Shown here: one piece after another, positions 2,496 to 5,714 of the stretch | Numbering within the stretch: the stretch's first letter is position 1 | How the letters are laid out: every line of letters starts with the position of its first letter | Assembly (NCBI GenBank): GCA_030697165.1 | Contig: JAUYQQ010000009.1 | Coordinates: 62,001 to 126,000 of the forward strand | Length of the DNA: 64,000 nt | Direction of reading: 5' to 3' | From: Acidobacteriota bacterium | GTDB lineage: Bacteria; Acidobacteriota; Vicinamibacteria; Vicinamibacterales; UBA2999 | Program-made: the position numbers and the translations under genes | Notes under the pieces: model-generated | Databases searched by the model: none | Told to the model about the DNA's origin: nothing | Seen by the model: only the letters and a program-made list of their open reading frames with translations

Positions 2496-3038
2496 ATGAA
2501 GCGAACTGTTTTGGCCGTCGCGATCACCGCGCTGGCGTTCGGCGCCGCGGTCAGCGCGCAGAAGACCACCCCGATCCACCCCGGCAAGGCCGGCAGCCCG
2601 CACGAGCGGGTCGAGTGGACCGTCGACGGCGCCAGCCTGTCGATCGAATACGGCCGTCCCTCGCTCAAGGGCCGCACCCCCGGCAAGGACGTCGATCCGT
2701 ACGAGGGCCGCGAGTGGCGCACGGGCGCAGACGAGGCCACCACGTTCAAGACCGACAAGATGCTGATGTTCGGCTCGCTGCACGTGCCGGCCGGCACCTA
2801 CACGCTGTACACGATTCCGACCGGTGGCACGTGGCACCTCGTGATCAGCAAGAAGACGGGTCAGTGGGGCGTTCCCTACCCGAAGGGCGAAGACCTCGGC
2901 CGCGCGCCGATGACGCTCGGCACCGCTCCTGCCGCCGCCGAGCAGCTCACCATCTCGATCCAGGACACGGCCGCCGGTGGCACGCTCCAGATCGATTGGG
3001 GCACCACGCGCGCGAGCATTCCGTTCACGGTCGGGTAA
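2496..3038 (+). CDS. DUF2911 exported protein
   Basis: A 180-residue protein. The first ~20 residues form a signal peptide (MKRTVLAVAITALAFGAAVSA, then Q). The rest matches the DUF2911 family: a beta-rich domain with the segment SIEYGRPSLKGR, then REWRTGADEATTF, and the conserved PAGTYTLYTIP and WHLVISKK stretches. The family is common in Bacteroidota and Acidobacteriota and has no established function. The ATG at 2496 follows GAAGGAG and places the signal peptide correctly; the frame is open further upstream but that extension has no coding character. Confidence 0.88.
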   Translation: MKRTVLAVAITALAFGAAVSAQKTTPIHPGKAGSPHERVEWTVDGASLSIEYGRPSLKGRTPGKDVDPYEGREWRTGADEATTFKTDKMLMFGSLHVPAGTYTLYTIPTGGTWHLVISKKTGQWGVPYPKGEDLGRAPMTLGTAPAAAEQLTISIQDTAAGGTLQIDWGTTRASIPFTVG

Positions 3039-3042
3039 CTAC

Positions 3043-3098
3043 AGGTGCCACGGTGCCAGAGTGCCAGGGTGCACCTTGGCACCTAGCACCGTGGCACC
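3043..3098. repeat. GGTGCCA-type hairpin between genes
   Basis: GGTGCCACGGTGC at 3044-3056 is the exact reverse complement of 3086-3098; the intervening bases repeat the same words (gtgccag, ggcacc). It starts right after the DUF2911 stop and may act as an RNA hairpin, but no T-run follows. Confidence 0.7.
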
Positions 3099-3164
3099 CT
3101 GGCACCTAAGCACCTCAGCCGTTTCTGCACTATCCTTGCTTCCTCTATCCCGAGGAGGCCCACG

Positions 3165-3743
3165 TTGTCCCGGCGACTCTCGTTGCTGACCTTGCTGTGC
3201 ACGCTGGCGGCAACCGGCGTGGCGCGCTCGACCACGGTTATTCCCCCCACCTTCGACGCGTTGGTATCCGGTGCCAATACTATTTTCGTCGGTGAGGTGA
3301 TGAACGTGCGTGCCGCGTGGGAATCCACCCCCGCCGGGCGCGTCATCAGGACGATGGTCACCTTCCGTGTCGAAGCCGTCTGGAAGGGGAACGTCGGTAC
3401 AGTCACCCAACTCGCATTCATGGGCGGGGAGATCGGCGATCTCGGCATGAAGGTGCACGGCATGCCCACGTTCCGCATGGGCCAGCGCGACGTGCTGTTC
3501 GTCGGCAGCGAAGCGAGACGGATCAGCCCGTTGGTGGGATTGATGCACGGCCGCATGCGCGTCGAGCGCGACCTGGTGTCCGGCGTCGACCGGGTCCGCA
3601 CCCACGACGGGCAGGCGCTCGGCAGCGTGACGCAGATCGGGCCGCAGCGGGCGCCGGCCTCGCTCGCGTCCGTTACCCCAATGCGCCTCAGCGACCTGGC
3701 AGACGCCGTGCGTGCCCAGATCACTGCTGCGAGGCGGCAATGA
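3165..3743 (+). CDS. exported protein, possibly NTR/TIMP-like, coupled to a metalloprotease
   Basis: A 192-residue protein with TTG start behind GAGGAGG and a signal peptide of about 22 residues. The mature part has a pattern that recalls the NTR/TIMP OB fold: NTIFVGEVMNVR, then VTFRVEAVWKGN, then FRMGQRDVLFVG (an F..G..y.lf.g strand). TIMPs are inhibitors of matrixin metalloproteases, and the next gene encodes a matrixin, overlapping this stop codon as ATGA. The N-terminal cysteine that animal TIMPs use to chelate zinc is absent here. The family call and any inhibitory role are inference; export and coupling are seen. Confidence 0.6.
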   Translation: MSRRLSLLTLLCTLAATGVARSTTVIPPTFDALVSGANTIFVGEVMNVRAAWESTPAGRVIRTMVTFRVEAVWKGNVGTVTQLAFMGGEIGDLGMKVHGMPTFRMGQRDVLFVGSEARRISPLVGLMHGRMRVERDLVSGVDRVRTHDGQALGSVTQIGPQRAPASLASVTPMRLSDLADAVRAQITAARRQ

Positions 3744-4870
3744 CGACCATTCGCCGCCGCACCCTGTGGGGAGCGCTGGTTGTGCTGCTGCTCGGCGTGA
3801 CGGCCGCCGACACGCCGCTCGGCTTTTCGCTGCTCCCCAACAAGTGGCCGAACGGCACGGTGACCATGCACCTGCAGCTGGGCAGCGCGTCGAGCCCGCT
3901 GGTGGACGGCTTGACCAGCTGGAACCAGGTGGCCACCAATGCCCTGGCCACCTGGAACACCCATATCGACCTGGTCAAGTTCTCGGCTGTGCCGAACTCC
4001 ACCGCATCGCGCGCCGAGAATGACGGCCGCAACAGCGTGTTCTTCGATTCCGCGGTGTTCGGCGATCCGTTCGACCGCGACACCCTGGCGATCGCCACGA
4101 GCTGGTATCGCGTCAGCACGGGCGCCAAGATCGAGGGTGACGTGGTGTTCAACAACGCCAAGTCGTGGAACTCGTACCGCGGCAACTTGCGCACCTCGGG
4201 CACCACCACGGTCAACGACTTGATGCGCGTGGCGCTGCACGAGTTCGGTCACATTCTCGGCCTCGACCATCCCGACGAGAACGGCCAGAACGTCAGCGCG
4301 CTGATGAATTCGGAGATCAGCAACCTCGACGCGCTGACGGCCGACGACATTGCCGGTGGCCGCTCGTTGTACGGCGGCGGCGTGACCTCGAACGTCAGCT
4401 TCCCACCGCGCAACGAGCCGAACGACTTCTTCAACCAGTTGATCGGCGTGTACCAGAACGAGTTGCGCGCCGGCCAGGTCACCACCTACGTCGATCCGGA
4501 AGGCATCGTCGTGTGGCTGATCGAGTACGCGCGCTACCGGGTGGGCTTGTGCGATCACTCGGCGGCGCAAACCCGCGTGTTCGCCGCGATCGACAACGCC
4601 GGGGTCTTTGGGGTGTGCGCGCTCACGCCGGCCGGCACCATTCCCTTCCCGCCACGCAACGAAGGGCTCGACTTCATGAATGCCCTGCAGGTGAAGTACC
4701 GCGACGATCTCAGGCGCGGCGCCGGCTCGTCGTTTGTGAACAACGAGGGCGCCGTGGTCTGGGTACTCGAGTACCTGCGCTATCGCTTGAATGGCTGCAA
4801 CCACGGTGATGCCACGACGAAGGTGTTCGCGCAAATTCGCGGCCAGGGCGTCCAGCCCGTCTGTCGCTAG
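3740..4870 (+). CDS. matrixin-family zinc metalloprotease with duplicated C-terminal domain
   Basis: A 376-residue protein with a signal peptide or anchor (residues ~8-23), a catalytic domain (~30-213) and a tail of two repeats. The zinc motif HEFGHILGLDH (H167, E168, H171, H177) is the HExxHxxGxxH signature of metzincins, and ALMNSEI at ~187-193 fits the Met-turn. The tail holds two copies of a 73-residue unit (221-293 and 303-375), each starting FPPRNE and ending GV..VC with an internal W..EY.RYR and C.H. About half the positions are identical between copies. The tail may bind substrate or the cell surface; I do not recognise it. The start overlaps the previous gene. Confidence 0.87.
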   Translation: MTTIRRRTLWGALVVLLLGVTAADTPLGFSLLPNKWPNGTVTMHLQLGSASSPLVDGLTSWNQVATNALATWNTHIDLVKFSAVPNSTASRAENDGRNSVFFDSAVFGDPFDRDTLAIATSWYRVSTGAKIEGDVVFNNAKSWNSYRGNLRTSGTTTVNDLMRVALHEFGHILGLDHPDENGQNVSALMNSEISNLDALTADDIAGGRSLYGGGVTSNVSFPPRNEPNDFFNQLIGVYQNELRAGQVTTYVDPEGIVVWLIEYARYRVGLCDHSAAQTRVFAAIDNAGVFGVCALTPAGTIPFPPRNEGLDFMNALQVKYRDDLRRGAGSSFVNNEGAVVWVLEYLRYRLNGCNHGDATTKVFAQIRGQGVQPVCR

Positions 4871-4907
4871 TGGCACGCCCCTTGCTCCCGTTCATGACTG
4901 AAGAGTC

Positions 4908-5714
4908 ATGGCGGGAAAACAAGCGGGAATCAATCGTCGCGAGTTCGCCTGTAGGGGGTTGAGCGCCGGAATCGGGTCGTTGGTTGCCACCCGCGCGGCC
5001 CACGCTCAAGAACAGCCATCGCGCGAGCCGCGGCTGATCTCCGACACCGACATCCTGAATTTCATCCTGAACCTGGACTACCTGCAGGCCGAGTTCTATA
5101 CCGTCGCCATCAGCGGCCGGCGGATCGGGGACTACAGCGTCGCCACTAGCGGCGTCGGGACCACCGGCGATACTGTTGGCGGCGCCGCGATCCCCTTCGA
5201 GCCCCGCCTGCACGAGGTAGTGACGCAACTGGCCGCCGACGAACGGGCCCACGTGAAGACCTTGCGCGATCGGCTGGGTCCCCTGGCCGTCGCGAAGCCG
5301 GCCATCAACCTCGAGGCCATGGGCACCGGGTTCCGGTCCGAAGCCGAGTTTCTCGCACTCGCACGAATGTTCGAGGATCTGGTGATGACGTCGTACCTGG
5401 GCGTGAGCAGCCTGATCGGTGATCCCCGGATGAGGGCCACCGCGGTGGGCCTGGCCCTCGCCGAAGCCCAGCACGCGAACACGTTCCGGAGCCTTGTCTC
5501 GGAACGCGGCCTGGTCGTCACCCGCTTCGATGCGCTCGACGTGCCGCCGCCACCGGCGGCCGGGGGCCGGCACTTCAACGTCGACAGCGAAGGCCTCTGC
5601 AACGTTCGCAGCGCGAGCCAGGCGCTGGCCGTGCTCTATCGCACCGGGACGCCTTTCGCCGCCGCCGGCGGCTTCTTTCCCCAGGGTCTCAACGGCGTAG
5701 TGAAGAACGTCTAG
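4908..5714 (+). CDS. Tat-exported ferritin-like domain protein
   Basis: A 268-residue protein with a twin-arginine signal (NRREFACRGL) and cleavage expected after AAHA. The mature region is an up-and-down helical ferritin-like domain: LDYLQAEFYTV, DERAHVKTL, FEDLVMTSYLG and LAEAQHANTF supply the E and ExxH residues that could bind a di-metal centre. It matches the ferritin-like family found with Tat signals in many soil bacteria; the physiological role is unknown. It lies downstream of the protease gene with a 37-bp gap. Its stop shares the palindrome CTAG with the stop of the convergent gene at 5711-6343. Confidence 0.85.
   Translation: MAGKQAGINRREFACRGLSAGIGSLVATRAAHAQEQPSREPRLISDTDILNFILNLDYLQAEFYTVAISGRRIGDYSVATSGVGTTGDTVGGAAIPFEPRLHEVVTQLAADERAHVKTLRDRLGPLAVAKPAINLEAMGTGFRSEAEFLALARMFEDLVMTSYLGVSSLIGDPRMRATAVGLALAEAQHANTFRSLVSERGLVVTRFDALDVPPPPAAGGRHFNVDSEGLCNVRSASQALAVLYRTGTPFAAAGGFFPQGLNGVVKNV

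Follow-up and report, generated by a model that had tools for sequence, protein, structure and literature searches.

The window, that is, the whole stretch of 64,000 nucleotides of acidobacterial DNA analysed here, carries two overlapping genes on its forward strand between positions 3165 and 4870. The first of them (3165–3743) begins with TTG, is preceded by the likely ribosome-binding site GAGGAGG (3152–3158) and encodes an NTR/TIMP-like exported protein of 192 amino acids, as judged from the open reading frame, its homologues, a structural model and a fold search. Since a relative was found at E ≤ 0.001 in 71 of 99 related genomes, 3165–3743 is no chance reading frame. Residues 1–22 (3165–3230), which end in A-R-S, form a predicted Sec-type signal peptide; the cut before T23 was set by eye according to the A-X-A rule and without a predictor. 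The mature protein is predicted to start with T-T-V-I-P-P-T-F. Its first five residues, T-T-V-I-P (3231–3245), are the proposed active-site ridge, placed by the fixed spacing to the barrel and by the starts of the TIMP alignments, and the mature NTR-like (OB-barrel) domain spans 3231–3740 according to the AlphaFold2 model, Foldseek and VIA-align.

The second gene (3740–4870) begins with ATG and encodes a matrixin of 376 amino acids, in which a signal peptide is followed directly by the catalytic domain. The Pfam match to Peptidase_M10 (PF00413; E = 9.7e-15, 55.2 bits at a cut-off of 24) covers residues 61–212 (3920–4375), with the zinc motif HEFGHILGLDH at 4238–4270 and the Met-turn ATG at 4304–4306. 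The structural model of this protein was poor (pLDDT 50, below 40 in the C-terminal repeats) and was used for the catalytic fold only, which matched MMP catalytic domains and serralysins. A profile built from the window protease and its relatives detected human MMPs (MMP-16, E 1e-9). The C-terminal part (4394–4867) consists of two repeats of the F-P-P-R-N-E type with about 75 residues each, with borders set by eye and without a match in Pfam; related proteases carry other C-terminal modules, including bulb-lectin-like ones (profile matches to mannose lectins).

The stop codon TGA of the NTR-like gene lies within ATGA (3740–3743), giving an overlap of 4 nt between stop and start codons. An earlier note on this DNA had described an exported protein of 192 residues whose stop overlaps the start of a matrixin with the motif HExxHxxGxxH, and all of this was recovered: the frame is present, its N-terminus is signal-peptide-like by eye, and the protease matches PF00413 above the cut-off. 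Among 130 separate pairs, 84 have a start codon exactly at −4 like the window; 93 overlap, 25 are spaced by 0–30 nt and 12 lie farther apart. For these distances the start closest to the stop was taken, which biases them towards short values. Translation of the matrixin is probably coupled to that of the NTR-like protein. Directly upstream of the NTR-like gene, an imperfect inverted repeat of GGTGCCA/TGGCACC units was observed at 3043–3115, with 30-nt arms that are 83% complementary and a core pattern that is absent from the rest of the window. A sigma-70-type scan of 2900–5000 returned no promoter-like site (0.4 expected), and one terminator-like site was found in the same range (1.2 expected); these counts allow no statement on transcription.

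Both genes are flanked by DUF2911 and Ferritin_2 genes (Pfam), among others. The Ferritin_2 gene (4908–5714) lies directly behind the matrixin; the pair occurs in 20 named loci, and this gene has no match in any of them. On the reverse strand, a gene pair resembling a PIN toxin and its antitoxin (by eye) is located at 1588–2390; it also stands beside the NTR–matrixin pair in locus L105 (about 92% identity) and in no other named locus. As flanking genes, the DUF2911 gene and MobA-, cold-shock- and YdcF-like genes were tested, the latter three labelled by eye. The DUF2911 gene and the three downstream genes are kept in all six named loci of the same genus. In the 14 more distant named loci none of the tested flanking genes has a match, whereas the NTR gene and the matrixin are both present in 13 of them, the remaining one (L115) ending before the protease. 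Synteny was therefore rejected as an explanation of why the two genes are paired: outside the genus, nothing but the NTR gene and the matrixin is conserved side by side.

Predicted fold and mature N-terminus of the NTR-like protein

The structure prediction was run on an alignment of the window protein, in its predicted mature form, and 20 relatives from named loci. The resulting AlphaFold2 model (pLDDT 80.1, pTM 0.78) has a helix at residues 8–14 of the mature numbering, long strands and a second helix at 153–169, with a weak stretch at 94–105. Foldseek against the PDB listed agrin NtA, the NTR domain of PCOLCE and TIMPs in its first ten rows (E 0.014–0.059, probability 0.97–1.00) and nothing at E ≤ 0.001. 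In VIA-align, the best row was N-TIMP-3 (Z 9.0, rmsd 2.9, 116 aligned), and the next rows were other TIMPs, agrin NtA and the NTR domains of complement C3, C4 and C5 with Z values of 7–8.8. Here, a Z value below 8 may reflect a common arrangement only, and a fold proves no function. At the level of a predicted model, the computation establishes an NTR (OB-barrel) fold for the protein. Since Foldseek had no row at E ≤ 0.001 and NTR domains of complement reach Z 8.8, neither the fold nor the register points to TIMP alone. In VIA-align, each of the 14 TIMP rows shown begins at residue 1 of both the model and the TIMP (numbered 301 or 1001 in renumbered structures). Several complement NTR rows likewise start at model residue 1, and the alignments give range ends only, so that the TIMP register is weak evidence by itself.

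The window NTR-like protein has no credible counterpart in Pfam, NCBIfam or PHROGs; DUF3145 was considered and rejected (E 0.041, under its cut-off). At E ≤ 10, the TIMP profile PF00965 had no match to the window protein or to 31 members of its family. With phmmer a single unrelated chain was obtained (E 1.4), and the 31-row family profile had no match among PDB sequences. PF00965 was also without a match in 60 related genomes; no control matched either, so this search is uninformative. By tblastn, the window NTR-like protein had 0 matches in 50,697 phage records and no match against plasmids.

The predicted mature N-terminus was compared over 167 family frames, including a few fragments and duplicates. 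Directly ahead of the predicted cut, 159 frames have A, S or G, and the stretch computed from position 1 up to V23, with which the first conserved strand motif ends, counts exactly 23 residues in 159 of the 167. Position 1 is mostly occupied by T (87), S (22) or A (21), position 2 by T (70), V (45) or S (24), and position 5 is P in 85 frames. With the cut set by eye, the first residue of the mature protein as predicted is also the start of the NTR-like domain and corresponds in register to TIMP residue 1. A cysteine at mature position 1, 2, 3 or 5 was found in none of the 167 frames. Thus, two further statements of the earlier note were borne out, namely its guess of an NTR/TIMP fold, for which prediction and fold search of 3165–3743 gave a match to the NTR superfamily and not another fold, and its remark that the N-terminal zinc-binding cysteine of TIMP is missing. 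In TIMPs, residue 2 points to the S1′ pocket of the protease. A review describes Cys1-Thr2-Cys3-Ser4-Pro5 as the ridge that TIMP-3 inserts into the protease, Cys1 lying over the zinc, and states that exchange of Cys1 for Ser abolishes MMP inhibition (PMC7308558). This loss of inhibition argues against the mechanism being simply copied without the cysteine.

Pairing with matrixins, fused frames and partner proteases

In the order survey, the DNA around all 103 family places in 99 related genomes was searched in all frames with family and matrixin-domain profiles. A matrixin was found directly downstream on the same strand in 87 loci and fused behind the family domain in 11, i.e. in 98 of 103. 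In the remaining five (L017, L064, L078, L081, L098), the family frame lies 0–2 bases from the contig end, so nothing is visible downstream there. Due to broken family copies (L018, L063) and overlapping loci (L020, L033), the 103 loci are not all independent. The NTR gene of L018 and L063 is interrupted by an in-frame TAG or a frameshift, with the downstream matrixin frame open; an assembly error and a lost partner cannot be told apart. In L118, two NTR–matrixin pairs stand in tandem on one contig.

Across the phylum, the 31-row profile detected a relative at E ≤ 1e-4 in 103 of 247 sampled genomes. From the matches listed, 58 loci were picked by hand, mostly from the upper part, and two fillers were added, yielding 59 family places. 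At 55 of these the family gene is paired or fused (42 adjacent, 13 fused). The 42 adjacent cases comprise 38 found by script and four missed by the distance rule (L220, L229, L248, L257), in which the protease frame is open far upstream and which were confirmed by domain position. A stricter recount by domain position gave 54 of 59, with pair L254 lost. One place lies at a contig edge (L214), and three are without a metzincin nearby. These partnerless members (L216, 3253–4092; L218, 3020–3838; L226, 2986–3705; no metzincin within the 3 kb taken) may be a branch with another role. Over all loci examined, 131 separate pairs and 26 fused frames were counted, and the adjacency that the earlier note had suggested surveying in other genomes was found both within the order and in the phylum sample. 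In addition, a contig scan with two narrow patterns returned 20 loci, 16 with acidobacterial titles, three with Acidimicrobiia and one with Cyanobacteria; the titles of L108 (Cyanobacteria) and L109 (Acidimicrobiia) look wrong.

The mirror-tree correlation between NTR protein and matrixin was 0.56 over 152 pairs, which indicates joint inheritance only. Mutual information between both proteins was rejected as evidence of coupling, as it tracked clade differences. Shuffles inside clusters gave a mean z of 0.43 for ridge and active site, 0.30 for the rest and the active site and 0.60 for the ridge and positions elsewhere. Such coupling counts provide no evidence that the NTR-like protein inhibits the matrixin.

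A search of the 130 separate partner proteases (order and phylum) found the cysteine-switch pattern in none. The 89 separate partners of the order likewise have no cysteine switch, and among the stretches listed for them the catalytic domain stands nearly always directly behind the signal peptide. As far as a pattern search can tell, the computation thereby shows partner proteases without a recognisable cysteine-switch prodomain. As a partnerless control, PF00413 was sought in 45 genomes and 29 regions away from family places were inspected. The strongest PF00413 match in these genomes (L174, E 4e-43) has no partner and carries a prodomain with PRCGTPD. Three regions have or contain a family domain after all (L154, L157, L168), four have their start or end at the edge of a contig and are not judgeable (L175–L178), and the other 21 are weaker PF00413 matches that look like other metzincins, without a family gene.

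In the 26 fused frames the family domain is N-terminal and thus takes the prodomain position. Switches between fused and separate forms amount to at least three on the protease tree and at least five on the family tree. The catalytic Glu is kept in 18 fused frames and missing in eight (L086, L088, L089, L093, L094, L095, L101, L157), where HK, HG, HN, HV or HL replaces HE but the zinc histidines are kept; judged from this motif, the eight proteases are likely dead. They lie on one side of a single branch (FastTree, support 94, one change), so this is one loss and not eight. The clade also has fibronectin-like C-terminal repeats, typed by eye. Among the separate partners, the motif was readable in 113, each of which has the catalytic Glu, and unreadable in 13. 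The ridge, defined by T, S or V at position 2 and no starting gap, is kept in two of the eight frames without Glu versus 16 of the 18 with Glu, and it is deleted in three of the eight (Fisher p 0.003 for the comparison; the rows are not independent, and the criterion was picked after viewing them). The erosion of the ridge in the Glu-less clade fits a ridge that is needed only against an active enzyme.

Known related systems

The interplay of TIMPs and matrixins is mostly presented as a matter of animal biology. Animal TIMPs (PF00965) share with the window family the NTR/OB fold with an N- and a C-terminal helix and a domain that starts at the signal-peptidase cut and acts beside matrixins (PMC7308558). 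The window family differs in that it has no Cys-x-Cys N-terminus, no disulfide scaffold and no PF00965 match, is single-domain and is encoded with or fused to its protease. Classical matrixins belong to the same catalytic family (PF00413) as the partner proteases, but have the cysteine-switch prodomain that is absent from all 130 separate partners and present in the partnerless L174.

The closest published precedent is Mtz-Tim of Listeria (2021), a secreted metzincin and a TIMP-like lipoprotein, which are paired in other Gram-positive bacteria too. According to this paper, Mtz cuts Tim, both together weaken the cell wall, Tim relatives outside Listeria also lack a lipobox, and the authors came across no TIMP-like protein of bacteria described before theirs (PMC8235301). 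The Listeria pair agrees with the present case in that a metzincin gene adjoins the gene of an exported protein with a predicted TIMP-like fold, the pair being kept in many bacteria. It differs in that the protease comes first there and Tim is a phage-linked lipoprotein cut by Mtz, whereas here the NTR gene is first, overlapping and often fused, no lipid anchor is predicted, and the pair is phylum-wide and lies on acidobacterial chromosomal MAG contigs. In the literature searched, with subscription journals thinly covered, no other report of bacterial TIMP-like proteins was found besides PMC8235301, and the main text of a 2025 paper on horizontal MMP gene transfer contains neither TIMP nor Acidobacteri (PMC12587646). 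AprA and AprI are likewise a bacterial metzincin with a nearby periplasmic inhibitor that uses an N-terminus made by signal peptidase; this N-terminal residue of AprI coordinates the zinc, and an N-terminal fusion blocks inhibition (PMC4070987).

Proposed mode of action and alternatives

It appears moderately probable that 3165–4870 encodes a protease together with a dedicated NTR-fold inhibitor, which acts N-terminus first like TIMP and is not a TIMP by membership. A bacterial inhibitor–protease pair in Acidobacteriota is likely, in the absence of inhibition data. In the proposed mechanism, the matrixin would be exported without a prodomain, so that signal peptidase alone would release active enzyme. 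The NTR-like protein would be made first, be exported together with the matrixin and, by an inferred binding, sit in the active-site cleft in TIMP fashion. Its free N-terminus, exposed by signal peptidase, may then cap the catalytic zinc, with residue 2 (Thr, Val or Ser) directed at the S1′ pocket; this inferred cap would do without a cysteine and be comparable to the signal-peptidase-made residue of Pseudomonas AprI. Through the inferred inhibition the enzyme would be silent in the periplasm and restrained outside, these places of action being inferred as well, and in the fused genes the domain in prodomain position would inhibit in cis.

This reading as an inhibitor is based on the NTR/TIMP fold with a start in the TIMP register and on the pairing (98/103 and 55/59) with its gene order, overlap and fusions in prodomain position, all obtained by computation. 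It is further based on the lack of a cysteine switch in 130 partners together with the switch in partnerless L174, on the fixed 23-residue spacing of the ridge (159/167) and its erosion in the Glu-less clade, and on the AprI precedent for zinc capping by a signal-peptidase-made N-terminus. The absence of binding or inhibition data and of a complex model counts against it, as does the fact that no sequence profile links the family to TIMP. The same applies to the TIMP-like partner of Listeria, which is cut and for which inhibition is not the reported outcome, and to the three of 59 phylum places without a metzincin nearby. The control provided by the Glu-less clade is weakened because it represents one event and the ridge criterion is post hoc.

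Alternatively, the NTR-like protein could be a chaperone or foldase that helps the prodomain-less matrixin to fold in the periplasm, any inhibition being secondary, and the fused forms would as part of this be prodomains in the usual folding sense. An NTR gene that is made first and overlaps, a domain at the prodomain position in 26 fused frames and partner proteases without a recognisable prodomain would all agree with such a role. We nevertheless regard it, including its view of the fused forms, as unlikely, since the fold is that of NTR domains, which include inhibitors, a fixed N-terminal ridge is unnecessary for a chaperone, and the ridge is eroded in the Glu-less fused clade though folding is still required there. 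By analogy with the proposal made for Listeria Tim, the NTR-like protein could instead be a substrate of its protease or an effector released by it, a cleavage fragment acting at another site, e.g. at the envelope. The model for this role is the cleavage of Tim by Mtz with effects that require both proteins (PMC8235301), but the predicted cut has no lipobox cysteine (0 of 167 at position 1), the gene order is opposite to that in Listeria and fusion to the protease is frequent, which makes this role quite improbable. Hardly any more credit can be given to a targeting or docking domain that binds matrix or surface ligands and positions the protease without blocking it: agrin NtA and PCOLCE NTR stand level with TIMPs in Foldseek, complement NTR domains reach Z 7–8.8 and three of 59 family genes have no metzincin, yet the missing cysteine-switch prodomain and the ridge erosion in the Glu-less clade would remain unexplained, and several proteases already have their own C-terminal modules.

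Under the preferred reading of an inhibitor with its protease, a function is offered for an exported family that is not recognised by Pfam, NCBIfam or PHROGs profiles, and the pair hints at how bacteria manage matrixins that are exported without a prodomain. Only tentatively, and as a possibility held with some reserve, we propose that Acidobacteriota possess a phylum-wide, cysteine-free branch of the TIMP type, in which the signal-peptidase-made N-terminus of an NTR domain would serve as zinc cap and replace the prodomain of matrixins that emerge active, in trans in the pairs and in cis in the fusions. With its wide occurrence in bacteria, its fusions and its Glu-less clade, the NTR–matrixin pair allows tests of how TIMP-style inhibition arose and what it requires at the least. 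If the proposal is true, the TIMP mode of inhibition would be older than animals and the cysteine scaffold, or of an origin separate from them.
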